From assembly GCA_026224805.1 (NCBI GenBank), contig JAMFRN010000045.1, positions 1 through 37,605 on the forward strand: a stretch of DNA of 37,605 nt, read 5' to 3'. The notes below the pieces were generated by a model that ran no database searches, was not told where the DNA came from, and was given only the letters and a program-made list of their open reading frames with translations. The DNA comes from Nevskia soli (lineage in GTDB: Bacteria > Pseudomonadota > Gammaproteobacteria > Nevskiales > Nevskiaceae). Below are positions 4,440 to 26,953 of this stretch, piece by piece; the first letter of the stretch is position 1; each line of letters opens with the position of its first letter. The position numbers were made by a program, and so were the translations under genes.

Positions 4440-4483
4440 AATCTAGAATCTAATGCTTGCGTCTCAATCGTCGGAAGCGACGA
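4440..4483 (-). promoter_or_regulatory. Regulon box 1 and promoter of the thiolase/FadB-like operon
   Basis: The perfect inverted repeat TCGTCG-N4-CGACGA occupies 4468-4483. Read on the minus strand, the N4 is CTTC and a TAGATT -10-like hexamer lies 22 bp downstream (4445-4440), so the box would be centred near -42.5 with transcription starting around 4433. In gene orientation the box and next two bases are identical to box 4 at 21716. Confidence 0.75.
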
Positions 4484-4494
4484 AACTGCGACAG

Positions 4495-4659
4495 CTACTC
4501 TTCGACCAGCTCGTAATCGCTCTTCGCGGCGCCGCATTCCGGGCACTGCCAGTCGTCCGGAATGTCCTCGAAGCGGGTTCCCGGGGCGATGCCGCTGTCG
4601 GGGTCGCCCAGCCTTTCATCGTACACGTGCGAGCAGTAGCGGCATTGGTAGCGGCGCAT
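4495..4659 (-). CDS. Rubredoxin
   Basis: A 54-residue rubredoxin, a small cytoplasmic one-iron electron carrier. The four iron ligands are visible as CRYC (C6, C9) and CPEC (C39, C42), with the conserved [10 protein letters not shown] and DIPDDWQCP segments. The frame is open for another 29 codons upstream, but the ATG at 4659 gives the normal family length and has GAGGAG upstream. It follows the desaturase-like gene by 40 bp on the same strand, so the two are probably cotranscribed from box 2, and rubredoxin is the likely electron donor to that di-iron enzyme, as rubredoxins are for AlkB alkane hydroxylases. No rubredoxin reductase is encoded in the window. Confidence 0.96.
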
Positions 4660-4699
4660 GCGCGGTGAATCTCCTCGTATGGCGGGTTGGGGCCGGATC

Positions 4700-5596
4700 T
4701 CAGGCGTCGCGCGCGGGATATACCACCGGCACGATGCGGAAATCATGCTGGATGGCGAGGTCGCGCTTGCGCAGTTCCGGCTCGATCAGCTGCCACACCT
4801 TGTAGTTGTTGTAGAACGGCGTCATCGGAAACAGGTGATGGATCAGGTGGTAGTTCTGGTATTGCAGCACCGGGCCCAGCAGCCATTCATAGCCCTGGCG
4901 CACGGTGGTGGCGCGGGTGAAGTTCTGTTCCTGCTCGGTGTCGTGCGGCACGTGCGGCAGCCAGAAGAAGCTGAATCCGAGCACCAGGAGGATCAGGCGC
5001 GACGGCAAGAACCACAGCATCAGCACCTGCAGGCCGTAGCCCTTGGCGATCAGCGCCGCCACCACGACCGCCACCACGGCGGCCATCATCAGGGCGGTCC
5101 GCAGGTAGGGTTTCGATACCTTGTCGCCGTGGCGCAGGGCATAGACGAAATAGATCGCATCGATCGCCATCCAGCGGAAGGGCAGGGTCCACCAGGCGCC
5201 GTGCAGCACTTTGTCCGGGTCGCGCTCGCCGCTGGCGAAGCGGTGGTGCAGGATGTGCGCCCAGCGGAACAGGCGGACGTCGACATAGGGCAGCACCATC
5301 AGCATGCCCAACTGGCCGATGCCGTCGTTGACCCGAGTATTGGACGAGATGGCGCGGTGGATCGAGTCGTGGATGACGCTGAAGGAGACATAACCGACCA
5401 GCGAGTTGAGCAGGGTGCCGACCCACAACGGCACCTGCCCGGTGCCGCAGTAATAGTAGGTGCCGAGGAAGGTGATGGTCAGCAGCACCCAGGAGATCGC
5501 CGTGGGCCAGGAAATCGCCGGGGCGCTGGTCAGTTGCTTGAAGCGCGCTCGCTGTTCCAGGGTCAGCGCGTCGAGGGGTACGATTGCCTTGCTCAT
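4700..5596 (-). CDS. Membrane fatty-acid-desaturase-family hydroxylase/desaturase
   Basis: A 298-residue integral membrane di-iron enzyme. Three histidine boxes are visible: HDSIH (76-80), HILHH (114-118) followed by DPD, and HLIHHLFP (250-257), with an extra PHVPH at 214-218. Hydrophobic segments lie near 30-50, 55-75, 165-185 and 190-215. The pattern fits the fatty-acid-desaturase superfamily, closest in style to CrtR-type carotenoid hydroxylases; the boxes differ from AlkB alkane hydroxylase. The ATG at 5596 is preferred over the one at 5605, because AGGAG lies ten bases before the former but almost abuts the latter. The adjoining rubredoxin is the probable electron donor. It probably hydroxylates or desaturates a hydrophobic substrate at the membrane; the actual substrate is not visible. 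Confidence 0.88.
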
Positions 5597-5623
5597 GGGG
5601 GACATTCTCCTGACGATGCCGGA

Positions 5624-5667
5624 ATTCTAGGTTTGCCGTCCAATACGGAAGTCGTCGAAAACGACGA
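5624..5667 (-). promoter_or_regulatory. Regulon box 2 and promoter of the hydroxylase/rubredoxin pair
   Basis: The perfect inverted repeat TCGTCG-N4-CGACGA lies at 5652-5667, directly abutting the tetR stop codon. On the minus strand TAGAAT lies exactly 22 bp downstream (5629-5624). This gives a leader of only about 20 bases before the hydroxylase start and gives the pair its own promoter, separate from tetR. Confidence 0.78.
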
Positions 5668-6342
5668 TTAAAGGCCTTGCCTGCGTGCGCTTTGCGCGCG
5701 CGGCGCGGCTTGCGCCCTGGGCCGTGCCCCGCGGTTCTGCGCACTCGCCGGACCGAGGCCGGACATGCGCTCGATGATCGGCCACACCAGTTCATCTAGC
5801 GTGTAGCCATGTACCAGCTGGTTGGCCACGTGCAGGCTCATCAGGCCGTGCAGGGCCACCCAGAAGCCGTGCGTGACCTGGCGCGCTTCGCCTTCCATCA
5901 GGCCCGCGTCGATGCAGGCCTTCACCGCTTCGACCAGGTGATCGAACAGGTGGCGGCGCGCGGCCAGCAGGTCGGGATAGCGGTCAGGCGGCGGCTGGTG
6001 CGTCGAGAAGATCAGCAGGTAGTCGCTGGGGCGTTCCTTGACGAAGTCCACCACGCCGGTGATGAGCGTATAGAGGCGTTGTTGCGGCAACTCGCCCGCG
6101 ACTTCGCGATCGCGCAGAAAGGTGTCGAAGCGGCTCAGCGCGTCCTGGCGCATCCGCGCCAGCAGGGCTTCCTTGTTCTCGAAATAGAGATAGGGAAGGG
6201 TGTGGCTGAGGTTCACCATGTCGGCCAGCTTGCGGAAGCTCACCGCTTCCAGGCCCTGGTCCTGGTAGATCTCGTTGGCGGCGGCGGACAGGCGTCGCCG
6301 CATGTCTTCGCGTTCGTCGGTGCTGAGTAGTGCCTTGGCCAT
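5668..6342 (-). CDS. TetR/AcrR-family transcriptional regulator
   Basis: A 224-residue regulator. The N-terminal region (about 10-58) is a TetR DNA-binding domain: AAANEIYQDQGLEAVSFRKLADMVNLS followed by LPYLYFENKEALLARM. The C-terminal ligand domain is all-helical and not diagnostic of a ligand; the last 25 residues are arginine- and alanine-rich and probably disordered. The ATG at 6342 begins the conserved region and lies next to a 26-bp palindrome that probably is its own operator. The gene sits between the Rieske operon and the hydroxylase/rubredoxin pair, so it may repress part of this catabolic region in response to an acyl-CoA or pathway substrate. Role as repressor is inferred from family. 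Confidence 0.92.
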   Translation of the reverse strand: MAKALLSTDEREDMRRRLSAAANEIYQDQGLEAVSFRKLADMVNLSHTLPYLYFENKEALLARMRQDALSRFDTFLRDREVAGELPQQRLYTLITGVVDFVKERPSDYLLIFSTHQPPPDRYPDLLAARRHLFDHLVEAVKACIDAGLMEGEARQVTHGFWVALHGLMSLHVANQLVHGYTLDELVWPIIERMSGLGPASAQNRGARPRAQAAPRAQSARRQGL

Positions 6343-6351
6343 GACTGGACA

Positions 6352-6377: not shown

Positions 6378-6509
6378 GTAATGGTGAAGTTGGCGCATCA
6401 GTGTTGCGACAGAAGCAACACGATGAGCGCCGATGCATTGCGTAGGCTTCCATGGGTTGCCGCTCCAAGCCGTTGTATAAGCGTAGATTCCGCTTCCGTC
6501 CCGGCAAGA

Positions 6510-6553
6510 TCGTCGAAAGCGACGATGAAGTGGTGTTGTTCTCAAAGCACCAT
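6510..6553 (+). promoter_or_regulatory. Regulon box 3 and promoter of the 15-gene Rieske operon
   Basis: The perfect inverted repeat TCGTCG-N4-CGACGA lies at 6510-6525 with N4 AAAG. A weak -10-like CACCAT lies 22 bp downstream (6548-6553), which predicts transcription from about 6560, some 20 bases before the Rieske ATG. The poor -10 and the lack of a good -35 suit an activator-dependent promoter. Confidence 0.7.
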
Positions 6554-6579: not shown

Positions 6580-7824
6580 ATGGTGACGGCGAGTGAAATG
6601 GTGCGGACGGACAGCGTGCATGGCGCGCTGTATTCGGACGAGGCGATATTCCAGGCGGAGCTGGAGAAGATCTGGTACCGCACCTGGGTCTATGTCGGGC
6701 ACGTCAGCGAGGTGCCCAAGCCGAACGATTTCGTGATGAAGGTCCTCGGCCCGCAGCAGGTGCTGATGACCCGCGACCGCAAGGGCGAGATCAATCTGCT
6801 GCTCAACCGCTGTGCCCACCGAGGCAACCAGTTGTGCATGGAACAGAAGGGCAACCGCAGTTCCTTTACCTGCCCCTATCACGGCTGGACCTTCAGCAAC
6901 ACCGGCCAGCTGCGCGGCTTCCCTTTCGCCAGCGGCTATGACGGCGCGGACCGGTCCAAGCTGGGACTGGGCCATGTGCCGCGCGTGGCGCAGTACCGCG
7001 GCTTCGTCTTCGGCTCCTTCGCCGCCGAAGGCCCGAGCCTGGAAGAGCATCTCGGCGCGGCGCGTGATGCGCTCGACCGGCTGTGCGAAACGTCTCCCTC
7101 GGGCGAGGTCGAAATCACTGCCGGCTTCCTGCAACACCGGGCCAAGTCCAACTGGAAGTTCCTGGTGGAGAACGAGACCGACGGCTATCACCCGCAGTTC
7201 GTTCACGCCTCCATCTTCAGTGTCGCCAAGAGCGGCATCGGCGAGCTGTACGGGCCGCAGTCCACCGCCGTGGCGCGCGACCTTGGCGACGGACATACCG
7301 AAAACGACCTGCGGCCGGAGTTCCGGCGCATCGGCAAGCCGATGAACTGGTTCGGCACCAATGCGGAGCGCCTGCCCGAGTACGTCGCCAGCATGAAGGC
7401 GGCTTACGGCGAGGAGAGGGCGACGCAGATCATGATCGACGGCACGCCGCACGTCATGATTTTTCCCAACCTGTTCATCGCCGAGATCCAGATTTTCGTG
7501 ATCCAGCCGCTGGCGGCAAACGAAACGGTGCAGCACGTCACCGCACTGCAGTTCAAGGATGCGCCGGACCTCAACCGGCGCCTGCGCCAGCAGACTATGG
7601 GTTCGGTCGGGCCGGCGGGTTTCCTGCTGGCGGACGACGCCGAGATGTACGAGCGCACCCAACGCGGCGTGACGGGAGCGAGCAAGCCGGAGTGGAACTA
7701 CCTCGGCCGCGGCCTGCATCGCGAGCGGCGCGACGAGAATGGTTTCCTGGTCGGCGACGCCACCGACGAGGTGACCTCGCGCGGCATCTGGCGCCATTAC
7801 CGGTCCTTGATGGAGGCCGGCTGA
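6580..7824 (+). CDS. Rieske non-haem iron oxygenase, alpha (catalytic) subunit
   Basis: A 414-residue aromatic-ring-hydroxylating-dioxygenase-type large subunit. The Rieske [2Fe-2S] motif is complete: C78-A-H80, 17 residues, C98-P-Y-H101. The mononuclear iron site is seen in NETDGYHPQFVH (D201, H204, H209), with the later GPAGFLLADDAEMYE segment likely supplying the carboxylate ligand. The ATG at 6580 has GGGAG/GGAG just upstream. The beta subunit follows with a one-base overlap, so an alpha-beta hexamer-type enzyme is expected. It should add O2 to an aromatic ring or hydroxylate an alicyclic compound, using NADH-derived electrons, but no ferredoxin or reductase gene accompanies it. It heads the 15-gene operon driven from box 3. 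Confidence 0.95.
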   Translation: MVTASEMVRTDSVHGALYSDEAIFQAELEKIWYRTWVYVGHVSEVPKPNDFVMKVLGPQQVLMTRDRKGEINLLLNRCAHRGNQLCMEQKGNRSSFTCPYHGWTFSNTGQLRGFPFASGYDGADRSKLGLGHVPRVAQYRGFVFGSFAAEGPSLEEHLGAARDALDRLCETSPSGEVEITAGFLQHRAKSNWKFLVENETDGYHPQFVHASIFSVAKSGIGELYGPQSTAVARDLGDGHTENDLRPEFRRIGKPMNWFGTNAERLPEYVASMKAAYGEERATQIMIDGTPHVMIFPNLFIAEIQIFVIQPLAANETVQHVTALQFKDAPDLNRRLRQQTMGSVGPAGFLLADDAEMYERTQRGVTGASKPEWNYLGRGLHRERRDENGFLVGDATDEVTSRGIWRHYRSLMEAG

Positions 7825-8312
7825 TGATCGAGGCACAGGATTTGTTGCTGTTCAAGGAAATCGAGCAGTTCGTCTATCGCGAGGCGCGCTTGCAGGACAG
7901 CCACGAGTACGACGCCTGGGAAGCGCTGTGGACCGACGATGGCATGTACTGGATCCCGGCCAACGGCGACGACATCGATCCCGAGTCGCAGATGTCCATC
8001 ATCTACGACAACCGTTCGCGCATCGCGTTGCGCATCAAGCAGTTCCACACCGGCAAGCGCCATACGCAGACGCCGCGCTCGCGCTTGTGCCGCGTGCTGT
8101 CCAACGTCGAACTGCTGGAGAGCACGGGCAACGAGTATCGCGTCACCGCCAACAGCATGATCTTCGAGTCCAATGCGCGCGGCGATACGATCTGGGGCGC
8201 GAGGACCGAGTACCTGCTGCGCCGCGAGAGCGACGCGCTGAAGATGGCGAAGAAGAAGGTGATGCTGTCGAATAACGATAAGCCCTTGTACACCTTGTCC
8301 TTCCTGGTCTGA
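7824..8312 (+). CDS. Rieske oxygenase beta (small) subunit
   Basis: A 162-residue protein of the ring-hydroxylating-dioxygenase beta family (NTF2/SnoaL-like cone). The N-terminal LFKEIEQFVYREARLQDSHEYDAWEALW pattern, the YDNRSRIALRIKQF segment and the terminal LYTLSFLV are characteristic. Beta subunits carry no metal; they stabilise the alpha trimer and can affect substrate choice. Its ATG shares the A of the alpha-subunit stop (TGATG), implying translational coupling. Length and position directly behind the alpha subunit support the call. Confidence 0.93.
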   Translation: MIEAQDLLLFKEIEQFVYREARLQDSHEYDAWEALWTDDGMYWIPANGDDIDPESQMSIIYDNRSRIALRIKQFHTGKRHTQTPRSRLCRVLSNVELLESTGNEYRVTANSMIFESNARGDTIWGARTEYLLRRESDALKMAKKKVMLSNNDKPLYTLSFLV

Positions 8313-8322
8313 GGGTACAGCC

Positions 8323-9150
8323 TTGGAATACGCACTGCCGGCCGAAGCCGAAGCCCTGGTTGCCGAGGGTCCGGCGCTGCTGCACTTGGTCGGCCGCGTC
8401 GGCCTGGTGCGGATGAACCGGCCGAAGGCTTCCAATGGTCTGGACATGGAGATGCTGGAAGCGTTGCGCGCGGTACTGCGGCATTGCATGGGCGAGCCAC
8501 GCATCGGCGTGGTGCTGCTCAGCGGCCGCGGGCCCAATTTCTGCGCTGGTGGGGACGTGCATGCCTTCGCCGCTAAAGGCGAGCAGCTGCCGTACTACAT
8601 CCGCCGGGCCACGTCGCTGCTGCAGGAGGTGATCGGCGCCTTGATCCACCTCGATGCGCCGGTGGTTGCCGCGGTGCAGGGCTATACCGCGGGCGGCGGC
8701 GGCATGGGTCTGCTCTGCGCCAGCGACCTGGTGCTCGCCGCCGATAACGCGAAATTCCTGGCCGGTGCCACGCGCGTGGGCATGGCGCCCGATGCGGGGC
8801 TGTCGGTCACCCTGCCGCGCCTGATCGGCGTGCGTCGCGCCACCGAGATGCTGCTGACCAACGACACGATGGACGCGGCGGAAGCGTTGTCGCTGGGCCT
8901 GGTCAATCGCGTGGTGACGGAAGCCGATCTTGCCGCGGCCTCGCTGGACTACGCCGCGAAGCTCGCCGCGGGGGCACCGCTGGCGCTGGCGGCGACCAAG
9001 CGCCTGCTGTGGTCCGGTGTGGGCCTGGGTGTCGATGCCGCTATGCCGGAGGAGAGCCGCACCGTGGCGGACTTGTGCCATACCGCGGATGTACACGAGG
9101 GCCTGGCTGCCGTCATCGGCAAGCGCGCTCCCCGCTTCAGCGGGAAGTAG
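8323..9150 (+). CDS. Crotonase-family protein (enoyl-CoA hydratase/isomerase) without the two hydratase glutamates
   Basis: A 275-residue crotonase. The oxyanion-hole segments are present (NFCAGGD and VQGYTAGGGGMG), as is PDAGLSVTLPRLIG. Both positions that hold catalytic Glu144 and Glu164 in rat enoyl-CoA hydratase are lost: the first is Gly in GGGMGLL and the second is Ala in the AGAT segment. It is therefore more likely an isomerase, hydrolase, ring-cleaving or decarboxylating member than a classical hydratase. The start is a TTG at 8323 with GAGGG upstream, ten bases after the oxygenase beta gene. Its place directly after the oxygenase suggests it acts on an early CoA intermediate (inference). 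Confidence 0.9.
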   Translation: MEYALPAEAEALVAEGPALLHLVGRVGLVRMNRPKASNGLDMEMLEALRAVLRHCMGEPRIGVVLLSGRGPNFCAGGDVHAFAAKGEQLPYYIRRATSLLQEVIGALIHLDAPVVAAVQGYTAGGGGMGLLCASDLVLAADNAKFLAGATRVGMAPDAGLSVTLPRLIGVRRATEMLLTNDTMDAAEALSLGLVNRVVTEADLAAASLDYAAKLAAGAPLALAATKRLLWSGVGLGVDAAMPEESRTVADLCHTADVHEGLAAVIGKRAPRFSGK

Positions 9151-9152
9151 GC

Positions 9153-9890
9153 ATGGCCGACAACCTGAACCTGCGAGGCCGGCGCGCCTTCGTCACCGGC
9201 GGCTCCAAGGGCATCGGCGCGGCCATCGTGCGGCGCTTGTGCATGCAGGGTGCGGAGGTGGTGTTGAGCGCACAGGACATGCCGCTGGCGGAACGGCTGG
9301 CGGCCGAAACCGGCGCCCGCGCGGTCCGCCTGGACCTCACCGATCTGCGCGCCGCGCAGCAGGTCGTCGCCGAACAGGGACCGTTCGACATCCTGGTCAA
9401 CAACGCCGGCCAGGATCAGCACGCCTACTTCACCAAAACGACCATCGAGGATTGGCGTTACCTGCTGGCGGTGAACCTGGAAGCCGTGCTGGCGACCACG
9501 CATGCGGCGCTGCCCGGCATGCAGGGGAAGAAATACGGCCGCATCATCAATATCGGTTCCGAGGCGGGACGGCAGGGTTCGAAGGGCGGCGCGGTCTATG
9601 CGGCCGCCAAGGGCGGCGTCATCGCCTTTACCAAATCCATCGCCCGCGAGAACGGCCGCTTCGGCATCACCGCTAACGTCATCGCGCCGGGTCCAGTGGA
9701 TACGCCATTGTTGCGCAAGGCGTTAGAGGACGGTGGCGACAAGCTGCTCGAAACGATGAAGGGTGCCACCTTGCTCAATCGCCTGGGGACGCCGGAAGAA
9801 GTCGCCGCCGCGGTGACGTTCCTGGCCTCGGAAGAAGCCGGCTTCATCACCGGCGAAACCCTCGGCGTATCCGGGGGCATGGGATGTTGA
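9153..9890 (+). CDS. Short-chain dehydrogenase/reductase
   Basis: A 245-residue classical SDR. The NAD(P)-binding TGGSKGIG motif is near the N-terminus, NNAG follows at mid-length, and the catalytic set is S136, Y149 and K153 (YAAAK). PGPVDTPL and the C-terminal VSGGMG are also typical. The ATG at 9153 is two bases after the preceding stop. Possible jobs are oxidation of a cis-diol made by the Rieske oxygenase or of a 3-hydroxyacyl-CoA; the sequence resembles FabG-like members and cannot distinguish these. It overlaps the next gene by seven bases. Confidence 0.94.
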   Translation: MADNLNLRGRRAFVTGGSKGIGAAIVRRLCMQGAEVVLSAQDMPLAERLAAETGARAVRLDLTDLRAAQQVVAEQGPFDILVNNAGQDQHAYFTKTTIEDWRYLLAVNLEAVLATTHAALPGMQGKKYGRIINIGSEAGRQGSKGGAVYAAAKGGVIAFTKSIARENGRFGITANVIAPGPVDTPLLRKALEDGGDKLLETMKGATLLNRLGTPEEVAAAVTFLASEEAGFITGETLGVSGGMGC

Positions 9891-10813
9891 GCGCGCCGAA
9901 GTTACCGATGCGCTCCGCGCCGTCCGCGGTCGATCACGTGGTGGCGCGCATCCGCACGGTCTATGGCGGCTGGAATCGCCACACGCCGATCCAGCAGATG
10001 CGCCGCGATTGGGACGAGTTCCTCTGGTTCGACGCACTGGCGCCGCATACCGAGGATGTGGACATCGATGGCCTGCGGGCGCGCTGGATCGACGCCAAGG
10101 ATGCGCGTCCCGACTACGTGCTGCTGTATTTCCACGGCGGCGGTTACAAGATGGGTTCGGTCAGATCCCACCATGATCTGATGAGCCGCCTGTCGGCCGC
10201 GGCGGGCTGCCGTGTGCTGGGCCTCGACTACCGCTTGCTGCCGGAGCATGTGTTTCCGGCGCCGGTCGAAGATGCCTGCTGTGCTTACCGTTGGCTGCTG
10301 CAGCAGGGTTATGCACCCGACCACATTGCTTTTGCCGGCGATTCGGCCGGCGGCGGCATGGTGGCGGCCGCCTTGTTGAGCTTGCGCGACCAGGGTGTGC
10401 CGTTGCCCGCGGCAGCGGTGCTGCTGTCGGCGCTGACCGATTTCGAAACGCGCGGCGCCAGCTACGAGACGCGCGCCGCCGTCGATCCCATCCACAGCCG
10501 CCAACTGATCCAGGCCCTGGCAACGCAGTACCTGGGACGCGAAGGCGATGTGCGGCAGGCGCTGGCCTCGCCCCTCAACGGCGAGTTGCATGGCTTGCCG
10601 CCGCTGCTGCTGCAAGCGGGTGACCGTGAGACCGGCCTCGACGATTCGGTGCTGTTTGCCGCAAAGGCGGCCGCGGCGGGCGTCGACGCCACCCTCCAGG
10701 TGTGGGAGGGAATGATCCATGTTTTCCAGCAGTTTCCCGCCGAACTGATCGAGGCGCAGGACGCCATCGACCACATCGGCGTCTTCCTCAAATCCAAATG
10801 GAGCATTTCGTGA
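9884..10813 (+). CDS. Alpha/beta hydrolase of the hormone-sensitive-lipase (HSL) esterase family
   Basis: A 309-residue serine hydrolase. The HSL signature HGGGY (84-88) forms the oxyanion hole, the nucleophile is S154 in GDSAGGG, an acidic residue lies in GDRETGLDDS (247-256), and the catalytic histidine is H279 in MIHVFQQF. There is no signal peptide, so it acts in the cytoplasm. It would hydrolyse a carboxylic ester or lactone of moderate size. Its ATG lies inside the last codons of the SDR gene. In this operon it may open a lactone or remove an acyl group from the imported substrate; that role is inference. Confidence 0.93.
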   Translation: MLSAPKLPMRSAPSAVDHVVARIRTVYGGWNRHTPIQQMRRDWDEFLWFDALAPHTEDVDIDGLRARWIDAKDARPDYVLLYFHGGGYKMGSVRSHHDLMSRLSAAAGCRVLGLDYRLLPEHVFPAPVEDACCAYRWLLQQGYAPDHIAFAGDSAGGGMVAAALLSLRDQGVPLPAAAVLLSALTDFETRGASYETRAAVDPIHSRQLIQALATQYLGREGDVRQALASPLNGELHGLPPLLLQAGDRETGLDDSVLFAAKAAAAGVDATLQVWEGMIHVFQQFPAELIEAQDAIDHIGVFLKSKWSIS

Positions 10814-12279
10814 ACGTTGGCATCGTCGGTTACGGCGCCTATATCCCGCGCCTGCGCCTGTCGCGCAAGGCGGTGGTGGAGGCCAACGCCTGGTTTGCGC
10901 CGCAGCCCTCGCGCAGCAAGGGCACACGCTCGATGACCAACTGGGATGAGGACAGTATCACCATGGCGGTGGCCGCGGCGCGGGATTGTCTGGGTGCTAT
11001 GGACCGCACCACCGTGCGTGCAGTGCTGCTGGCCTCCGCCACCCTGCCGTTTGCCGAGCGCCTCAATGCGGGCGTTGTTGCCGGGGCGCTCGACCTGGAT
11101 GAATCCGTGGCCGCGCTCGATCTCACCGGCAGCCAGACCGCGGCACTGTCCGGCTTCGCCCAGGCGGCGGCGCTCGCGGCCGTCGGCAGCGGACCGGTGC
11201 TGCTGACTGCGGCCGATGCGCGCCGGACCCGCGCGGCGAGCAGTTCCGAACTCGACTATGGCGACGGCGCCGCCGCCTTCCTGCTCGGCAAGGACCGCCC
11301 CATCGCGGAAATCCTGGCGCAGGCGTCGATCACGGTGGATTTCGTCGATCGCTTCCGGCTCGCCGGACAGGACATCGATTACCACTGGGAGGAGCGCTGG
11401 GTACGCGACGAGGGCATTAGCAAGATCATGCCGCGCGCGGTCGCTCAGGCACTGGCGCAAAGCGGCGTCGAAGCCGCCAGGGTCGACCGTTTTATCTTTC
11501 CCAGCACCTTCGCCAAGGTTGATGCCGTGTTGGCGAAGAAATGCGGCATTGCCCCCGAGGCGGTGGTCGCCAACCTGGCCGACACGATTGGCGATACCGG
11601 CGTTGCCCATGGTCTGCTGCTGCTGGCGCAAGTGCTGGAAACGGCCTCGCCCGGACAGGTCATCGTGCTGGCGCAGTTCGGCAGCGGCGCGCAGGTGCTG
11701 GTGCTGCGCGTTACCGAGCGCATCAAGTCCTTCAAGCCACGCCTGGGCGTGGCCCGCTGGCTCGATCGCGGCGTCATCGAAAACAGCTACACCCGCTTCC
11801 TGGTCTACAAGGACCAGTTGCAGGTGGAGCGTGGCATGCGCGGCGAGCAGGACAAGAAGACGGCGCTGACCACCGCTTACCGGCACCACCGCGCCATCCT
11901 CGGCCTGGTCGCCGGGCGTTGCAGCGTCACCGGGCAGGTGCACTATCCGCCCTCGCGCTATTCCTATACGCAGGGTGCGCCGGCGCTGGATACGCAGGAG
12001 CCTTACCCGTTGGCGGAGCGGCAGGGCACGGTGCTGAGCTGGTCGGCGGAATTCCTTTCCTTCCACCTGTCGCCGCCGCACCAATATGGGCAGATCGACT
12101 TCGACGGCGGCGGGCGCATCCTGATGGACTTCACCGACGTGGCGCAGGGCGATATCGCCACCGGCACGCGGGTGGAGATGGTGTTCCGCATCAAGGACAC
12201 AGACGAGGTGCGCGGCTTCAAGCGCTACTTCTGGAAGGCGACGCCGGTTCCCGGCCAGCCGGCGCCGGAGCGGACATGA
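10810..12279 (+). CDS. HMG-CoA-synthase-like thiolase-fold protein fused to a C-terminal OB-fold (DUF35) domain
   Basis: About 489 residues. The first 340 resemble the hydroxymethylglutaryl-CoA synthase branch of the thiolase superfamily (GIVGYGAYIPRLRL, FPSTFAKVDAVLAKKCG, LAQFGSGAQVLVL). The last 120 form a DUF35-type OB domain (TGQVHYPPSRY, LSWSAEFLSFHLSPP, FTDVAQGDIATGTRVEMVF) that keeps only one of the usual zinc-ribbon cysteines. The catalytic cysteine expected in the D-x-x-N-A-C region is replaced: the sequence reads DLTGSQTAAL with Q109 at the cysteine position. The GTG at 10810 is preferred, because GGAG lies six bases before it and it overlaps the hydrolase stop as GTGA; an ATG at 10798 is possible. 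It may be a decarboxylating or non-condensing enzyme, or a partner of the next thiolase. Confidence 0.82.
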   Translation: MNVGIVGYGAYIPRLRLSRKAVVEANAWFAPQPSRSKGTRSMTNWDEDSITMAVAAARDCLGAMDRTTVRAVLLASATLPFAERLNAGVVAGALDLDESVAALDLTGSQTAALSGFAQAAALAAVGSGPVLLTAADARRTRAASSSELDYGDGAAAFLLGKDRPIAEILAQASITVDFVDRFRLAGQDIDYHWEERWVRDEGISKIMPRAVAQALAQSGVEAARVDRFIFPSTFAKVDAVLAKKCGIAPEAVVANLADTIGDTGVAHGLLLLAQVLETASPGQVIVLAQFGSGAQVLVLRVTERIKSFKPRLGVARWLDRGVIENSYTRFLVYKDQLQVERGMRGEQDKKTALTTAYRHHRAILGLVAGRCSVTGQVHYPPSRYSYTQGAPALDTQEPYPLAERQGTVLSWSAEFLSFHLSPPHQYGQIDFDGGGRILMDFTDVAQGDIATGTRVEMVFRIKDTDEVRGFKRYFWKATPVPGQPAPERT

Positions 12280-12713: not shown

Positions 12714-12747
12714 TTCCGCAGCGCCGTCACTTTATTGGAAATCAGAC

Positions 12748-13944: not shown

Positions 13945-13953
13945 GAGCCTGTC

Positions 13954-15521: not shown

Positions 15522-15531
15522 GGCGCTCCCG

Positions 15532-18793: not shown

Positions 18794-18806
18794 ACGGCCA
18801 GTCGGC

Positions 18807-20477: not shown

Positions 20478-21697
20478 ACGGCCTGGTTCTCGACGGCTTC
20501 CGCGTCATCGAGGCCTCTGCGTTCGTCGCGGCTCCTTCCGGCGGCATGGCGCTGGCCCAGCTTGGCGCGGAAGTCATCCGCATCGATCCGCCCGGCGGCG
20601 GTCTCGACTACCGGCGCTGGCCGGTGACGCCGGACAACACCAGCCTGTTCTGGGCCGGCCTGAACAAGTCCAAGCGTTCGGTGGTGATCGACACCGCTTG
20701 CGATGAAGGGCGGGAACTGGCCATGGCCCTGGTCTGCGCGCCGGCCGAGGAGGGCGGGATGTTGCTGACCAATCTGCCGCCGCGCGGCTGGCTGTCCTAC
20801 GAGCACCTGCAGCAGCGGCGTTCGGACCTGATCCAGCTGACCATCCAGGGGACGCGGCAGGGCGGCCCGGCGGTGGACTACACCGTCAATCCCTCGCTGG
20901 GCATTCCCAACATCACCGGCCCGCTGGACGCCACGGCTCCGGTCAACCATGTACTGCCGGCCTGGGATCTGATCACCGGCCAGATGGCCGCAGTCGGGCT
21001 GCTCGCCGCCGAGCGCTACCGGCGGCGGCATGGCCTGGGGCAGCATATCCGGCTGGCACTGGAAGACGTGGGGCTGGCAGTGATGGGGCACCTGGGTTTC
21101 ATCGCCGAAGCGCAGCTCGGCCAGGCGCGGGAACGCCACGGCAACGATCTGTTCGGTGCCTTCGGCCGCGACTTCGTTTGCGCCGATGGGGCGCGAATCA
21201 TGCTGGTGGCGCTGACGCTGAAGCAATGGAAGGCTCTGGTCGAAGCCACCGGCACGGCGGCGGCGATGGCGGCTCTGGCGCAGGAGCTGGGGCTGGACCT
21301 CAACCGGGAAGGCGACCGCTTCCGTACGCGCGAGCGCATCGCCACCATCGTGCAGACGTGGATCGCCGCACGCAGCCTGGACCAGGTAGCACCGTGCTTC
21401 GATCGCGCCGGCGTCTGCTGGAGCCGCTATCAGAGCATTGCACAACTGGCAACCGGCACGGCGGTGGATCCCGATCACAATCCGCTGTTTTCGCGGGTCG
21501 TGCAAGACGGCGTGGGTACCATTTCCTCACCCGCGACGCCGCTGCAGTTCGGCCTGGCCGGGCGCAAGCCGGCCGAGGCCGCCCCGCTGCTGGGCCAGCA
21601 TACCGAGGAGGTTTTGTGCGGTGTGCTCGGACTCAGCGCGCAGCAGTTCGGACGCTTGCACGACCGGGGCATGGTCGCTACCGCCACGGCGATCTAG
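20474..21697 (+). CDS. mct: CaiB/BaiF-family protein, probable 2-methylfumaryl-CoA isomerase (mesaconyl-CoA C1-C4 CoA transferase)
   Basis: A 407-residue class III CoA-transferase-family protein. The N-terminus (EASAFVAAPSGGMALAQLGAEVIR, GGGLDYRRWP, FWAGLNKSKRS) and mid-region (VDYTVNPSLGIPNITGP, APVNHVLPAWDLITGQ, HGNDLFGAFGRDFV) follow the family members annotated as 2-methylfumaryl-CoA isomerase, which move CoA within mesaconyl-CoA from C1 to C4. The length is about that of the Chloroflexus enzyme, as recalled. It is the last gene of the operon and completes the set needed to turn methylsuccinyl-CoA into pyruvate and acetyl-CoA. The family is certain; the specific activity is strongly suggested by motifs and neighbours. 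Confidence 0.85.
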   Translation: MNGLVLDGFRVIEASAFVAAPSGGMALAQLGAEVIRIDPPGGGLDYRRWPVTPDNTSLFWAGLNKSKRSVVIDTACDEGRELAMALVCAPAEEGGMLLTNLPPRGWLSYEHLQQRRSDLIQLTIQGTRQGGPAVDYTVNPSLGIPNITGPLDATAPVNHVLPAWDLITGQMAAVGLLAAERYRRRHGLGQHIRLALEDVGLAVMGHLGFIAEAQLGQARERHGNDLFGAFGRDFVCADGARIMLVALTLKQWKALVEATGTAAAMAALAQELGLDLNREGDRFRTRERIATIVQTWIAARSLDQVAPCFDRAGVCWSRYQSIAQLATGTAVDPDHNPLFSRVVQDGVGTISSPATPLQFGLAGRKPAEAAPLLGQHTEEVLCGVLGLSAQQFGRLHDRGMVATATAI

Positions 21698-21715: not shown

Positions 21716-21760
21716 TCGTCGCTTCCGACGATTCAGGGCGCGGAGCCGGGTTTCCATAAT
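21716..21760 (+). promoter_or_regulatory. Regulon box 4 and promoter of the thiolase/LuxR unit
   Basis: The perfect inverted repeat TCGTCG-N4-CGACGA lies at 21716-21731 with N4 CTTC. CATAAT, the best -10 of the set, lies 23 bp downstream (21755-21760), predicting a start near 21767. This supports the ATG at 21789, which has GGAGAA upstream, as the thiolase start. Because the LuxR gene follows the thiolase by 112 bp, the box may autoregulate the regulator. Confidence 0.8.
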
Positions 21761-21788
21761 GCCTGTAGACGTGATCGGAGAAATCAAC

Positions 21789-22973
21789 ATGGGCAGGTCC
21801 GTGCATGTGGTGGGAGTCGGCATGATTCCCTTCACCAAACCGGGTGCCAGCGAGTCCTATACGGTAATGGGGACCAAGGCTGGGCGCGCCGCGCTCAAGG
21901 ATGCGCGCCTGGACTACGGCCACGTGCAGCAGGTTTATGTCGGCTATGTGTTCGGCGACTCCTGTTGCGGGCAGGCTGCGGCCTACGGCATCGGGCTGAC
22001 CGGCATCCCGGTGATCAACGTCAACAACAATTGCGCCACCGGTTCGACCGCCCTATTCCTGGCGCGCCAGGCGGTGGAGAGTGGCGCGGTGGAATGCGCG
22101 CTGGCGGTGGGCTTCGAGCAGATGGCGCGCGGCGCCCTGGGCGCGGTATTCAATGATCGCGACGATCCCACGCAACGCATCCTCGACACCATGACCGCCA
22201 TCCAGGGCACGGAATCCCAGGCGCCGCGAGCGGCGCAGCTGTTCGGCGGCGGCGGTCGTGCGCACATGGAACTGTTCGGCACCCGCCGCGAGACCTTCGC
22301 CATGATTTCGGTCAAGGCCCGGCGCCACGCGGCCAACAATCCCCATGCCGTGTTCCGCGATCCGATCACGCTGGAGCAAGTGATGGATTCGCCGCCGATC
22401 TTCGATCCGCTGACGCGCCTGCAATGTTGCCCGCCGACCTGCGGCGCCGCCGCCGCGGTGGTCTGCTCGACGGAATTCGCCGTGCGGCACGGCCTCGATA
22501 CACGGGTGAAAATCGTGGCCCAGGCCATGACCACCGACACCAACTCCAGTTTCGACGAGCTGGATATGCGCAAGCTGGTGGGCTACGACATGAGCCGCAA
22601 TGCCGCCCGCCAGGTGTACGAGGCCGCGGGCGTTGGCCCCGAGCAGATCCAGGTGTGCGAGCTGCACGATTGCTTCACCGCCAACGAACTGCTGACCTAC
22701 GATGCCTTGGGCCTGACGCCGGAAGGCACGGCGGAACGCTTCATCGTCGATGGGCAGAACACCTATGGTGGTCAGGTGGTGACCAATCCTTCCGGCGGCC
22801 TGTTGTCCAAGGGTCATCCGCTCGGTGCCACCGGGTTGGCGCAGTGCGCCGAGCTGACCTGGCAGCTGCGCGGTCAAGCCGGTCCGCGCCAGGTCGAGGG
22901 CGCGAGGTTTGCCTTGCAGCACAACATTGGCCTGGGCGGCGCCTGCGTCGTCACTCTTTACCAGGCTGCGTAA
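21789..22973 (+). CDS. SCP-x-type thiolase
   Basis: A 394-residue sterol-carrier-protein-x-type thiolase (lipid-transfer thiolase). The active-site cysteine is C82 in NVNNNCATGSTALFLA, HDCFTANELLTYDALG replaces NEAF, the histidine is H343 in LLSKGHPLGATG, and C386 lies in GLGGACVVTLY. These are typical of SCP-x thiolases acting on branched or sterol-side-chain 3-oxoacyl-CoAs. It is the third thiolase of the region and has its own box-4 promoter. An open frame extends upstream over the promoter, but GGAGAA seven bases before the ATG at 21789 settles the start. Confidence 0.93.
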   Translation: MGRSVHVVGVGMIPFTKPGASESYTVMGTKAGRAALKDARLDYGHVQQVYVGYVFGDSCCGQAAAYGIGLTGIPVINVNNNCATGSTALFLARQAVESGAVECALAVGFEQMARGALGAVFNDRDDPTQRILDTMTAIQGTESQAPRAAQLFGGGGRAHMELFGTRRETFAMISVKARRHAANNPHAVFRDPITLEQVMDSPPIFDPLTRLQCCPPTCGAAAAVVCSTEFAVRHGLDTRVKIVAQAMTTDTNSSFDELDMRKLVGYDMSRNAARQVYEAAGVGPEQIQVCELHDCFTANELLTYDALGLTPEGTAERFIVDGQNTYGGQVVTNPSGGLLSKGHPLGATGLAQCAELTWQLRGQAGPRQVEGARFALQHNIGLGGACVVTLYQAA

Positions 22974-23085: not shown

Positions 23086-25812
23086 ATGAGCAAAGTTACT
23101 GATTCATCCCGATTCAACCAGGGCCGGCAGACGCTGCCTCTGCTGGGCTCCAAGCTCAACCCTCCCATTGCGCCGCCTTATATGGTGGCGCGTAGCCATA
23201 TCGCGGACCGCGTATTCCTCTCTTTGGGCATCAAGCTGGTGCTGGTGAGAGGGCCGGCGGGCTTTGGCAAGACCACGGCGATGCTGCAATTGCGCAGCCG
23301 CTTCAACCATGAAGGTGTGCCCAATGCCTGGCTCAATCTGGATGAGGCGGACAACGATACGCCGCGCTTCCTCGCCTACCTGGAGGAAGCGCTGCAACCG
23401 CTACTTTCCGGGAAGCCCGGCCGGCCGAACCGAGGCGAGCACCGTAGCGGCTCCGAACTTGCAGTGTCGATCCTCGATCGCATTTCCGCGCAAAGCGGCC
23501 CTTTCGTGCTGTTCCTGGATGAATGCGAGAACATCCGCAATCCGGCCGTCTCGGCTTTCGTGACCCAGCTGATTGACAGCCTTCCCGTGGGTGCCCAGCT
23601 CGTCGTCGGCACGCGCACTGTGCCGTCCATGGGCATCGCCAAGCTCCGCGCGCGTGGCCAGTTGCTCGAGATCGCCCCGGATGAGTTGCGCCTTTCCGCG
23701 GACGAAGCATCCGATTTCCTGACCAAGCAGCGTCGCCTGGTGCTCAAGGCCGAGCAGATCCGGCGCCTGCACAACACCACCGAGGGCTGGGTTGCCGCCC
23801 TGTGGCTGGCCTCGGTGGCGCTGGAGAAGCGGGCGGATATCGACGAATTCATCGCCGGCTTTGCCGGTTCCAACGCCGATATCGCCGATTACCTGGCCGA
23901 GGATGTGCTGAGTCGGCAGAGCGAGTTGTCGCGGGAGTTCCTGCTCAAGACCAGCATCCTGGACCAGTTGACTCCCGAGTTGTGCGACACGATATGCGGC
24001 CGCGACGATAGCGCGGAGCAACTCAAACGCATCGAGCGGGCCAACCTGTTCCTCATTCCGCTCGATGAGAGCCGCAGCGCCTACCGCTATCACAGCCTCT
24101 TTTCGGGATTTCTGCGCGGCCAGTTGCGGCGCCTGAAACCAGAGTGGCATGCATCTCTGCATCGCGCCGCTTCCGATTGGTATTTCGCGCAGAACCGGCC
24201 GATCCCCGCCATCACCTACGCCCTGAAGGCGGGAGACGCGCAGCGGGCGCTGACCATGATCGAGGCGCAGGTGGACGTGATGCTCGGCGAAGGGCGGCTG
24301 CGCCAGCTCAACAAGTGGTTCGAAGCGCTGCCGCGGGAAGCGCTGGACTCGAGTCCAAGGCTGAAGCTGATCCAGGCCTGGGCGGTCAATCTTACCTATG
24401 GGCCACACGAAGCGCTGGCTCTGGTCGAACGCCTGGAAACGCAGCAGATGGCGGATGCGGAGGGTGAGGCGCAATTGCTGGCGCTACGCCCCATGTTGCT
24501 GGGCATGAGCGACAGGATCGATCAATCCCACGCTTTGGGCCGGGAGCGGCTGCCCCTGGTCAAGCCGGAATTCGCATTCGCCCGCAGCATGCTGGCGCAG
24601 ACGCTGGCCAATACCAGCATGATCCTGGGCAACCTGACGGAAGCGCGCAGCTATGCAGACGAGGCGCGCCAGTTGCAGACGTCGAAGGCGTCCCGGCTCA
24701 ATTTCGCCCTGGCCGATTCGGTCGATGGCGCCATCGACCTGATGCAGGGACGCCTGAAACAGGCCACGGTGCGGCTGCGCCGGGCCGCCGGCGTCAGCGG
24801 CGAGGACATCGTCAATAGTACCAGCCGCAACGCCTATTCCGGCGTATTGCTGGCCGAAGCCCTGTACGAGGCGGGCGATGCCGAACGGGCGGAGCGCCTG
24901 CTCGGCGTTTTCGTGCCGATGCTGCAGCAGTTGGGCTTGCCCGATCACCTGATCATGGCCCATGTATTGCTGGCGCGCATCGTCGGCGATCGCGGCGACC
25001 GCGGTCATGCCCTGCAATTGCTCGGCGACCTGGAGAGTGTCGGCCACCGCTTGACCCTGCCGCGCGTAGTGGCCAGTGCCCGACTTGAACGCGCCAGGGG
25101 CCTGATCATGCGCGGCGACCACGCCGCCGCGCGCGAACAGCTGGACCGGGCAGGGGACTCCGCCCTGTGGCAGCAAATGGCCGCGCGCTCCCACGTGGCG
25201 AACGATTTGCTGAACCATCCGCTCGGCATGCTGCGCTGGATGATTCACAGCGGCGCCATTGCCGACGCCATTCCACAGATCAAGCAGAGGCTGGAAGAAA
25301 CCGAGCACGCCAACTTTCATCGACGCGCCCTCAAGCTGCGCATCCTGCTGGCCGAGGCGTTGAGCCGTGACGGGCAGCGCAAGCCGTCCATGCGCGTCCT
25401 GGAAAAAGCCCTCGACTATGCCTCGGGTGAAGGCTTCGTCAGCACCTTCCTCGAGGAGGGGCCGGCCATGCAGGGCATGCTCCACGAATTCCTCAACGCC
25501 CGCGAGGGCGCCGCTGCGGAAAACAGCAATGCCGAGCAGTTCCTGCGCCGCATCGCGCAGGAACACCAACCCGCCACCGACCGCGCGGCCGCAGTGGAAA
25601 TGCAGAGCAGCGCCGTCGACGCCCTCACCTCCAAGGAAATCCAGGTACTGGAACTGCTGGCGCAGGGGTATTCCAACGATGCCATGGCCGGCAAGCTCTT
25701 TGTATCGGAGAGCACGGTGCGCACACACCTGCGCAACATCAACGTCAAGCTGCGGGCCGGCAACCGCACGCAGGCCCTGGTCATTGCCAGGCGCCTGAAG
25801 TTGATCGCCTGA
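23086..25812 (+). CDS. LuxR-family ATP-dependent regulator of the MalT/AlkS (LAL) type
   Basis: A 908-residue transcriptional activator. Walker A is GPAGFGKTT (56-64) and the Walker B-like FVLFLDECENI ends near 150. A long TPR-like helical region (about 380-800) would sense the inducer. The C-terminal LuxR helix-turn-helix spans about 847-905 (LTSKEIQVLELLAQGYSNDAMAGKLFVSESTVRTHLRN in outline). The ATG at 23086 has GGAGGAG upstream. MalT and AlkS, which controls alkane oxidation, are the best-known relatives; such proteins form ATP- and ligand-dependent oligomers. It is the most plausible activator of the six boxed promoters, as it is encoded among them and the boxes sit in activator position. 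It may share the box-4 transcript with the thiolase. Confidence 0.93.
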   Translation: MSKVTDSSRFNQGRQTLPLLGSKLNPPIAPPYMVARSHIADRVFLSLGIKLVLVRGPAGFGKTTAMLQLRSRFNHEGVPNAWLNLDEADNDTPRFLAYLEEALQPLLSGKPGRPNRGEHRSGSELAVSILDRISAQSGPFVLFLDECENIRNPAVSAFVTQLIDSLPVGAQLVVGTRTVPSMGIAKLRARGQLLEIAPDELRLSADEASDFLTKQRRLVLKAEQIRRLHNTTEGWVAALWLASVALEKRADIDEFIAGFAGSNADIADYLAEDVLSRQSELSREFLLKTSILDQLTPELCDTICGRDDSAEQLKRIERANLFLIPLDESRSAYRYHSLFSGFLRGQLRRLKPEWHASLHRAASDWYFAQNRPIPAITYALKAGDAQRALTMIEAQVDVMLGEGRLRQLNKWFEALPREALDSSPRLKLIQAWAVNLTYGPHEALALVERLETQQMADAEGEAQLLALRPMLLGMSDRIDQSHALGRERLPLVKPEFAFARSMLAQTLANTSMILGNLTEARSYADEARQLQTSKASRLNFALADSVDGAIDLMQGRLKQATVRLRRAAGVSGEDIVNSTSRNAYSGVLLAEALYEAGDAERAERLLGVFVPMLQQLGLPDHLIMAHVLLARIVGDRGDRGHALQLLGDLESVGHRLTLPRVVASARLERARGLIMRGDHAAAREQLDRAGDSALWQQMAARSHVANDLLNHPLGMLRWMIHSGAIADAIPQIKQRLEETEHANFHRRALKLRILLAEALSRDGQRKPSMRVLEKALDYASGEGFVSTFLEEGPAMQGMLHEFLNAREGAAAENSNAEQFLRRIAQEHQPATDRAAAVEMQSSAVDALTSKEIQVLELLAQGYSNDAMAGKLFVSESTVRTHLRNINVKLRAGNRTQALVIARRLKLIA

Positions 25813-25870
25813 ATCGTGGAGTATCCGTCACTCACCTGACGTGTGCCCTGTCCATGATGTCGCTGCCGCT

Positions 25871-25914
25871 TCGTCGGAGCCGACGAGGCGCCGAAGCACG
25901 CGCAGGGATAGTGT
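25871..25914 (+). promoter_or_regulatory. Regulon box 5 and promoter of the phosphatase gene
   Basis: The perfect inverted repeat TCGTCG-N4-CGACGA lies at 25871-25886 with N4 GAGC. A weak -10-like TAGTGT lies 22 bp downstream (25909-25914); GATAGT two bases earlier is an alternative. The predicted start near 25921 lies downstream of the earliest in-frame ATG (25854), arguing that the phosphatase begins later. Confidence 0.7.
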
Positions 25915-25967
25915 CATTCCGGGGAATAACCAGCCCGAACGCGAAGCCAGTAATGCAGGATCACGAC

Positions 25968-26795
25968 ATGGACCTCAATTTTCACGGTGCGCAGCCCGCC
26001 TCGGCGCGGCTGCTGGCGGGAGCCCCCAATTTCCGCGATCTCGGCGGCCTCAAGGGCGTGGGTGGCCGTGTCGTGCGCGCCGGCATGGTTTATCGCTCCG
26101 GCGCCCTGGACGAATTGCTGGCTGTGGATTTGTCGCTGCTCGAAACTCTCGGTGTGAGCCTGTGCTGCGATCTGCGTACCGGCTCCGAACGCGCGCTCAG
26201 CCCCAGCCGCTGGCCCGAGGGACGGGTGCCGCGCCTGCTGGAGCTGGAATTCTCCTCCGATGTCCGCGCCTTGAGTCCGGAACTGATGCAACTGCTCAAC
26301 GACGCGCCGAGCGCCGACAACGCCATGCAAATGATGCTGGGCCTTTACCGCAGCATGCCCGCTACCTGCGCGCCGCTGCTGGCACGCCTGTTTCCGGAAC
26401 TGGCTGGTGCAGCCGATGCCTTTCCGGTGGTGATTCACTGCACTGCAGGCAAGGACCGCACCGGATTCGTCATTGCCATACTGCTCTCCGTGCTGGGCGT
26501 GGCGCCAGTCGATATCCGCGCCGACTACCTGTATTCCAACCACAGCTCCGAACATTTGCGGCGCAGCGCCAAGGTGCAGGCCCTGTTGCGGCAGCTGTTG
26601 GGTATGACCCCCGATCCGCATGCCGTGGATGCACTAACCAAGGCGGCACCTGAATATCTGGATGCCGCCCTGACTGAAGTCCGGCAGGGCTATGGCTCGA
26701 TCGAGCGCTATCTGCACGAAGCAGCTGGAATTGACGCAACCATGCAGGCCCGGCTACGACAGCGGCTGCTCGAGGCGACGGCCACGTCAGCCTGA
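25968..26795 (+). CDS. Tyrosine-protein phosphatase of the IphP-like family
   Basis: A 275-residue phosphatase. The P-loop signature HCTAGKDRTG (C158 nucleophile, R164 phosphate-binding) and the N-terminal NFRDLGGL and YRSGAL motifs identify the IphP/Siw14-like tyrosine phosphatase group. There is no signal peptide. The ATG at 25968 is preferred: AGGA lies seven bases upstream and the box-5 promoter is upstream; ATGs at 25953 and 25854 are in frame but less likely. Relatives dephosphorylate phosphotyrosine, phosphoinositides or small phosphoesters. It is a single-gene unit with its own regulon box, so it probably serves the pathway, but its substrate is unknown. Confidence 0.9.
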   Translation: MDLNFHGAQPASARLLAGAPNFRDLGGLKGVGGRVVRAGMVYRSGALDELLAVDLSLLETLGVSLCCDLRTGSERALSPSRWPEGRVPRLLELEFSSDVRALSPELMQLLNDAPSADNAMQMMLGLYRSMPATCAPLLARLFPELAGAADAFPVVIHCTAGKDRTGFVIAILLSVLGVAPVDIRADYLYSNHSSEHLRRSAKVQALLRQLLGMTPDPHAVDALTKAAPEYLDAALTEVRQGYGSIERYLHEAAGIDATMQARLRQRLLEATATSA

Positions 26796-26818
26796 AGCGC
26801 AGCCATCTGCTGTGACAT

Positions 26819-26856
26819 CCAGCCCCCCGTGGCTGGGGCAGGGCAAGAGCGCCCTG
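26819..26856 (+). terminator. Two adjacent hairpins after the phosphatase gene, possible weak terminator
   Basis: CCAGCC (26819-26824) pairs with GGCTGG (26831-26836), and CAGGGC (26839-26844) pairs with GCCCTG (26851-26856), each with a six-base loop. They lie 23 bp after the phosphatase stop and before box 6. No T-tract follows, so intrinsic termination is doubtful. Confidence 0.35.
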
Positions 26857-26908
26857 AATGACCGCATAGGCGAATTTTTCCAGGCCGCGGAGGCTGGAAA
26901 CGATAGTT

Positions 26909-26953
26909 TCGTCCAAACCGACGATACCTCTGCGCTCCATGGCCCCTTAGCCT
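26909..26953 (+). promoter_or_regulatory. Regulon box 6 (one mismatch) upstream of the TonB operon
   Basis: TCGTCC-AAAC-CGACGA at 26909-26924 differs from the other five boxes at one base in the left arm. TAGCCT, a poor -10, lies 23 bp downstream (26948-26953). The next gene starts at 27099, leaving a leader of about 140 bases with pairing potential. The imperfect box and weak -10 make this the least certain member. Confidence 0.55.

Follow-up and report, generated by a model that had tools for sequence, protein, structure and literature searches.

The closest described counterparts of the locus considered here are regulators with a LuxR-type DNA-binding domain. The AlkS/PalkB pair of Pseudomonas putida GPo1 comprises a LuxR/MalT activator of alkane degradation, inverted-repeat operators adjacent to the -35 region and self-feedback of the regulator (PMC8784404). 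MalT binds short motifs, GGA[TG]GA, which PMC9628970 contrasts with inverted repeats; the same paper describes SCO6993 of Streptomyces coelicolor, a LAL (MalT/AlkS-type) protein of the LuxR family footprinted on palindromes, including its own promoter. For NarL, PMC4549865 describes a dimer of the C-terminal domain that binds two inverted heptamers 2 bp apart as its preferred geometry, with a 7-2-7 site of napF at -40 to -49. The present study concerns a 37,605-nucleotide stretch of Nevskia soli DNA (contig JAMFRN010000045.1 of assembly GCA_026224805.1, hereafter the window), in which the 16-bp palindrome TCGTCG-N4-CGACGA recurs around a LAL gene at 23086-25812 on the plus strand. Judging from the sequence, we are confident that the six copies, or boxes, are operators of a single activator, this LAL protein, and they very probably form the on-switch of an unstudied pathway degrading some organic compound.

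The original prediction had listed five perfect boxes and one with a single mismatch, all between genes, and had put the chance expectation near 0.002 copies per window. Our recount agrees. Perfect copies begin at 4468, 5652, 6510, 21716 and 25871, and the copy at 26909, TCGTCCAAACCGACGA, departs from the pattern at one base. All six lie between called genes, although called intergenic DNA makes up just 2292 of the 37605 bases (genes were called with a home-made program that relies on codon usage and was trained on the window). With even base use, 0.0022 perfect copies would be expected per window; the real composition raises this to 0.0044 and the dinucleotide content to 0.0054. When up to two mismatches were allowed, 15 matches were found against a shuffle mean of 3.17, and 0 of 100 shuffles reached 15.

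Each box would serve as a promoter element for its own transcription unit. Box 1 (4468-4483, minus strand, read there as TCGTCGCTTCCGACGA) has the -10-like hexamer TAGATT at 4440-4445 (minus), 22 nt away, and is predicted to drive the genes for a thiolase, a FadB-like protein and an enoyl-CoA hydratase. Box 2 (5652-5667, minus strand, TCGTCGTTTTCGACGA), which directly adjoins the stop codon of a TetR-family gene, is followed after 22 nt by TAGAAT (5624-5629, minus) and would drive the hydroxylase and rubredoxin genes. On the plus strand, box 3 (6510-6525, TCGTCGAAAGCGACGA) precedes the Rieske gene run 6580-21697, with the weak hexamer CACCAT (6548-6553, plus) 22 nt downstream, and box 4 (21716-21731, TCGTCGCTTCCGACGA) is the predicted promoter of the gene for a thiolase-like lipid-transfer protein and then of the LAL gene itself, a putative self-activation, with CATAAT (21755-21760, plus) at 23 nt. 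The two remaining boxes, also on the plus strand, are box 5 (25871-25886, TCGTCGGAGCCGACGA), with TAGTGT (25909-25914, plus) at 22 nt, ahead of a tyrosine-phosphatase-like gene, and box 6 (26909-26924), with TAGCCT (26948-26953, plus) at 23 nt, ahead of a TonB system.

Boxes are kept upstream of orthologous units in relatives, namely the Rieske, thiolase/FadB, hydroxylase, phosphatase and TonB units, as the original prediction would have it. Three further genomes of the family, G008, G021 and G036, carry close LAL orthologues with surrounding boxes, G021 being a genome of the window's genus. In G008, whose LAL is 52% identical and lies at 54.0-56.7 kb of its contig, eight perfect intergenic copies occupy 47.9-89.6 kb of the same contig. 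One of them stands between the hydroxylase and Rieske orthologues, and the Rieske orthologue (74% identity) has the box at G008:C105:57884 in front of it; the gene order of the Rieske run is largely kept. Other G008 boxes precede TonB receptors, an aldehyde dehydrogenase and an acyl-CoA dehydrogenase relative. The thiolase/FadB operon has its box, as with box 1, in both G021:C11 and G008:C105. The G021 fragments carry boxes before the thiolase operon, the phosphatase and a TonB-system gene: the equivalent of box 5 is at G021:C143:4168, between LAL and phosphatase, and that of box 6, with the identical single mismatch, is upstream of the orthologue at G021:C332:726. At G021:C599 a LAL gene follows an acyl-CoA dehydrogenase relative that has a box ahead of it. 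As in G008, there are boxes in G021 that stand ahead of TonB receptors. The LAL of G036 is 48% identical.

Identity drops to 37-49% in more distant LAL relatives, which occur in G082 (another family of the same order) and in genomes sampled from the class, the order of G190 and the phylum. Named examples are Cupriavidus metallidurans CH34, C. necator N-1 (plasmid pBB1), Cupriavidus sp. EM10 and a Paracoccaceae plasmid, and the box-linked LAL clade extends to the betaproteobacterial Cupriavidus and an alphaproteobacterial plasmid. The LAL of C. metallidurans CH34 is encoded at NC_007974.2:2182604-2185273, with boxes at L162:15126, 18624 and 22728 ahead of three units. In G082 the boxes cluster around LAL. 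In G190, five of the 25 genome-wide matches to TCGTCN6GACGA fall within about 26 kb around LAL, four of them between called genes. Among 14 further LAL neighbourhoods of 32-43 kb each, ten held intergenic TCGTCN6GACGA (31 sites in total), and none was found in those of G717_C6, G717_C5, G605 and EM10. An unprompted search of the 14 for recurrent intergenic 5-N6-5 palindromes, with masked N runs in G1035 set aside, returned TCGTC as the sole top half-site in eight, tied at one copy in two and absent in four. By comparison, ten control neighbourhoods around LALs of 30-33% identity contained no exact TCGTCN6GACGA between genes, and TCGTC was among the top half-sites in none of them; four one-mismatch matches to TCGTCG-N4-CGACGA lay between genes there, none with a -10.

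The pooled sites define the operator more sharply. The symmetrised half-site profile of a first set of 34 sites reads a-TCGTC-G-S-W, with positions 1-5 nearly invariant, position 6 mostly G and W at the centre in 97%; a WW centre is present in 31 of 31 sites of a second batch. The first set is the non-redundant part of 38 sites, from which three near-identical orthologous G021 sites and one weak G021_C55 site were dropped. The whole is a two-fold symmetric 7-2-7 site, (a)TCGTCGS-WW-SCGACGA(t), that is, two inverted heptamers with a 2-bp centre. In G036 two boxes read TCGTCA-N4-TGACGA (locus L049), both half-sites being altered together. The same spelling occurs at four sites of C. necator N-1 pBB1 (L163), and this symmetric variant in two separate lineages is perhaps a natural specificity switch.

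The genome to which the window belongs (G000) is a metagenome-assembled genome of 3.95 Mb in 267 contigs, 84% complete. The original prediction had proposed a genome-wide scan and had taken many copies in coding regions as a point against a regulon; such an abundance did not appear. There are 14 perfect copies, five in the window and nine elsewhere, the latter all within reading frames of at least 182 aa and none intergenic. At one mismatch the 179 matches were close to background, for which the reversed control gave 147. A refined pattern, TCGTCNNWWNNGACGA (TCGTC-NNWWNN-GACGA), has five exact matches in the 3.95 Mb, all within the window and including that at 26909, while box 25871, with its spacer GAGC, misses it by one base; with one mismatch the refined pattern is at background (47 against 51). 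In the own-genome stretches scanned with the refined pattern at up to one mismatch, including one window locus, 43 sites were found, of which five are intergenic and outside the window. Three of these five (L099, L104 and L113) have nAnnnT at 22 or 23 nt in a permitted orientation, and the genes behind them encode an abhydrolase, an FAD-binding protein and a SnoaL-like protein. They are possible distant members of the regulon, too weak to claim.

The position of the box relative to the promoter is equally constrained. A -10-like hexamer 22-23 bp after the box had been predicted, and nAnnnT is indeed found at 22 or 23 nt for six of six window boxes. With the first set aligned by the box alone, 32 of its 34 sites carried nAnnnT at a downstream distance of 22 or 23 nt in a permitted orientation, and any other pair of offsets scored 0-5; in the second batch, which had not been used for finding the spacing, the count was 27 of 31 (other pairs, 0-4). 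The fixed spacing was thus replicated on new sites. Taking the first base of the predicted -10 as -12, the box is centred at -42.5 or -43.5, in line with the -42.5 given earlier. Little of a -35 element is left: among 66 promoters (59 sites, contigs G021_C143 and G021_C11 left out), at least four matches to TTGACA were seen at spacers of 15, 16, 17, 18 and 19 in 0, 4, 2, 0 and 0 cases, the control rate being 2.2%. Class II activators usually bind in just such a position, replacing the -35 at a fixed distance from the -10. Since the boxes stand at the -35 place, at a fixed distance from the -10 and with hardly any -35, they are predicted to occupy this position.

The regulator itself is a protein of 908 aa whose start is uncertain (23062 or 23086) and whose recognition helix is SESTVRTHLRNIN. 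Domain searches and a structural match to MalT bear out its earlier labelling as a MalT/AlkS-like LuxR protein. It contains TPR_MalT (PF17874, 101.5 bits against a cut-off of 45) and a C-terminal GerE domain, the LuxR-type helix-turn-helix (PF00196, 60.7 bits), with PDB matches that include NarL 1je8. An N-terminal ATPase domain is indicated by the Walker A sequence GPAGFGKTT, while Pfam AAA_16 remained below its cut-off (25.7 against 32.6). The best PDB match is the MalT fragment 8bob (residues 19-426, E 1.5e-49); the MalT equivalog NF003420 scored 392 against a required 537 bits. A 95% identical LAL is present in the metagenome-assembled genome Nevskia sp. RYN_593. LAL-like matches are abundant in genomes of the family, a single genome having as many as 17 matches to this protein at E 0.001.

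Box presence follows the phylogeny of these proteins. When 33 LALs were placed in a tree, all 16 proteins with boxes nearby fell into one clade of 18 (support 99/99), and none of the 15 remaining LALs had a box. The box label requires three changes on the tree, compared with a mean of 11.3 after shuffling, and 0 of 500 shuffles were as low. Two rows of the tree (the window and G021_C143) are near-copies, and the partial LALs G021_C599 and G021_C298 were excluded. Box-bearing members of the clade have the recognition helix T[VI][RC]TH[LV]R, and LALs outside have TVKFHLK, TVKSHLR, TVKTHLR and similar. With V only in the helix class, 14 proteins had helix and box, one the helix without a box, two another helix with a box and 16 neither (p 2.1e-6). 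The two with a box but another helix, G082 and G487, carry TIRTH, and allowing I gives, by eye, 16, 1, 0 and 16. Among the outgroup LALs that were read, the helix is mostly TVKFHLKN or TIKFHLKN, and the surroundings of ten of them showed no recurrent palindrome in common. We also considered a single residue as the specificity switch, given that R is replaced by C in the G036 helix where G is replaced by A in the box. This proposal is weakened by C. necator pBB1, where the A/T box is found together with an unchanged R, so that this variant of the box does not depend on the replacement seen in G036.

Other explanations of the boxes have to be weighed against activation by LAL. The TetR-family regulator encoded at 5668-6342 (minus strand) adjoins boxes 2 and 3, binding to palindromes in the vicinity of catabolic genes is common among TetR proteins, and TetR-family genes are also present in the G008 and La 6 clusters, although these are not homologous to the window TetR at E 1e-4. 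At the same threshold the window TetR has no homologue in the other box-bearing neighbourhoods, its sole further match (28.6% over 105 aa) being in a control neighbourhood, and a box in the -35 place with little -35 remaining suits an activator better than a repressor. We therefore rejected it as a general regulator of the boxes, and consider it very unlikely that they are its operators; the earlier preference for LuxR over TetR is upheld by this and by the way in which boxes track the LAL clade and helix. Another dimeric regulator, encoded elsewhere and with LAL as a mere passenger, would be compatible with the sequence data, all the more as LAL is found in every neighbourhood because the neighbourhoods were found through LAL. 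Against such a protein stand the absence of boxes near LALs outside the clade, both in the controls and in the tree, the agreement of box presence with clade and helix, the fact that exact refined boxes occur nowhere in the own genome but in the LAL cluster, and a 7-2-7 geometry that suits a LuxR/NarL domain, and we regard it as improbable. Finally, the palindromes might reflect chance and base composition, or RNA hairpins and terminators: GC-rich coding sequence is full of TCG and CGA words, all nine perfect copies outside the window fall within reading frames and the one-mismatch counts of the own genome are near background. With about 0.005 perfect copies expected per window, intergenic clustering, a fixed distance to a downstream -10 and sites upstream of the predicted -10, which would not be transcribed from these promoters, the probability of this explanation is close to negligible, the conservation and spacing data having already contradicted it.

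Several observations weigh against operators of the LAL protein, or against parts of that proposal. Regarding the promoters, the -10 is missing at two of 34 and four of 31 sites (one of the four having no gene in a usable direction), that of box 6510 is poor, TTGAGA comes after box 1, and the hexamer at spacer 17 resembles TTGACA slightly more than the control does (mean 1.89 against 1.34). Box 25871 lacks the WW centre, and all intergenic calls depend on the home-made gene caller. Some neighbourhoods contribute little, with one called intergenic box each in G585 and G687 and one box on the 4.6-kb contig G021_C143. On the side of the regulator, the box labels of the tree were entered by hand from earlier scans, the clade member G021_C55 (helix TVRTH) has no convincing box on a 35-kb contig, a second clade member, G717_C6 (helix TVRSH), is without a box in the DNA examined, C. 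necator pBB1 combines an A/T box with a retained R, and two box clusters hold the non-homologous TetR-family genes mentioned above. Genomes in which no clade member was found also gave more matches forward than in the reversed control (G011, 23/20; G006, 55/28; G037, 52/22; G084, 24/8), and G036 gave fewer (9 against 17). Because of the former excess, whole-genome counts alone are uninformative. The spread of matches was judged in G011 and G006 only: in eight chosen stretches, 12 of 13 exact TCGTCN6GACGA lay in called genes, and the 13th, near a contig end and checkable in one direction, had no -10.

With these points considered, activation of all six units by LAL, as put forward in the original prediction, is supported by the match of clade and helix with the box, the spacing and the confinement of the boxes. 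In the mechanism that we propose, an inducer, probably the pathway substrate or its CoA ester, would bind LAL together with ATP and cause oligomerisation; a pair of LuxR-type domains would then occupy each box, centred at -42.5 or -43.5, and LAL would recruit RNA polymerase as a class II activator. The six units switched on would provide oxygenation (hydroxylase/rubredoxin and Rieske), CoA-linked beta-oxidation, the thiolase-LAL pair, the phosphatase and TonB energy for uptake, and the thiolase-LAL unit behind box 4 would give LAL positive feedback. Such feedback is likely, because box 4 precedes the thiolase and then LAL, G021:C599 is arranged similarly and feedback has been described for AlkS.

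The genes behind the boxes are as follows. Behind box 1, on the minus strand, are the acetyl-CoA C-acyltransferase (thiolase) at 3162-4367 (NF006090, 647 bits, cut-off 514), the FadB-like enoyl-CoA hydratase/3-hydroxyacyl-CoA dehydrogenase at 992-3169 and the enoyl-CoA hydratase at 3-977. The box 2 unit, also on the minus strand, consists of a membrane desaturase/hydroxylase family protein at 4700-5605 (FA_desaturase; CrtR-like but below the cut-off) and a rubredoxin at 4495-4659. The remaining units are on the plus strand. The Rieske run opens with the alpha and beta subunits of a ring-hydroxylating oxygenase (6580-8312), whose closest PDB relatives are ring-hydroxylating dioxygenases, and continues through 8323-21697 with enoyl-CoA hydratases, a short-chain dehydrogenase/reductase (SDR), a lipase-like hydrolase, an HMG-CoA-synthase-like protein with an OB domain, a LEH-like protein, a thiolase, a 3-hydroxyacyl-CoA dehydrogenase, a CitE-like lyase, an acyl-CoA dehydrogenase and a CoA-transferase III. 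The HMG-CoA-synthase-like, CitE-like and methylfumaryl-CoA-isomerase-like proteins of this unusual series are all three below the NCBI cut-offs. The thiolase-like lipid-transfer protein at 21759-22973 (NF006102, 678.7 bits, above the cut-off) is, by position, cotranscribed with LAL. The tyrosine-phosphatase family protein is encoded at 25953-26795, and the TonB energy-transduction system at 27099-31404 comprises DUF3450 (27099-27863), ExbB, ExbB, ExbD and TonB. The presence of this DUF3450-ExbB-ExbB-ExbD-TonB module behind a catabolic operator is an observation in its own right, as is an AveC-like spirocyclase family protein (PF17198) at 36023-37087 (minus strand), at the window end and outside all box units.

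Across genomes, the first genes behind the boxes were most often those of thiolases (10), acyl-CoA dehydrogenases (8), AMP-forming CoA ligases (6), enoyl-CoA hydratases (6), CoA-transferases III (5) and TonB receptor plugs (4), followed, with three each, by aldehyde dehydrogenases, Peripla_BP_6 ABC-type binding proteins, DctP TRAP binding proteins, SDRs and hydroxylases/desaturases, and by two Rieske proteins, one protein possibly counting in several families. Of 66 first genes 64 were scanned, leaving out L077:3-509 and L151:16782-20000, and the DUF3450 gene was taken from 27099 instead of 27225. This tally points to CoA-linked breakdown and uptake as the common theme, with sets that vary between lineages. 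As a guess, the substrate of the pathway is a cyclic, branched, hydrophobic compound. APH-type kinases were also seen in box clusters together with acyl-CoA dehydrogenase, SDR and CoA-ligase genes (L084:11198-12208 in G082; L077:6759-8207 in G021), an arrangement reminiscent of the catabolism of 4-hydroxyacids of the levulinate type.

Taken over all lineages, we think it reasonably probable that the LAL clade represents a portable regulator-operator pair, TCGTC(G/A)-N4-(C/T)GACGA at the class II position, across gamma-, beta- and alphaproteobacteria, under which the catabolic cargo (Rieske/hydroxylase, differing sets for beta-oxidation, and uptake through TonB, ABC or TRAP systems) is swapped, at least two lineages having undergone a symmetric switch at half-site position 6. 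LALs are numerous, but to our knowledge few have a defined operator; here the sequence yields a predicted operator, promoter position, regulon and matching recognition helix for one LAL clade. Clade members in named bacteria such as C. metallidurans CH34 make these predictions testable. In addition, grouping the genes of an oxygenase/beta-oxidation pathway into one putatively co-regulated set narrows the search for the substrate, and the locus offers a candidate inducible activator-promoter pair. No report of the operator, in literal or close spellings, or of the LAL clade was found in the one open-access library searched, where the match for Nevskia with LuxR concerned the microbiota of bivalves, and both are provisionally regarded as new in print.

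Compared with the known systems, the window resembles SCO6993 in that a LAL protein would act on palindromes that include its own promoter; SCO6993 differs in being a repressor of 606 aa, for which its authors could not predict a consensus site. NarL shares the 7-2-7 geometry and a GerE/LuxR-type domain, but has another half-site sequence and is a response regulator rather than a LAL. MalT of Escherichia coli has the identical domain order and supplied the best PDB match; it differs in its sites, which are the short GGA[TG]GA motifs, and the window LAL falls under the MalT cut-off. The predicted switch would work like AlkS, a LuxR/MalT-type activator of an oxygenase cluster with an inverted repeat near -35 and positive feedback. 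The alk cluster of P. putida includes a rubredoxin as well. The cargo differs, consisting in the window of a Rieske oxygenase, CoA-linked beta-oxidation and a TonB system, and the likeness to AlkS is one of description. On the best reading of the data, the system is a new AlkS-like regulator-operator pair that is kept while its catabolic cargo changes.

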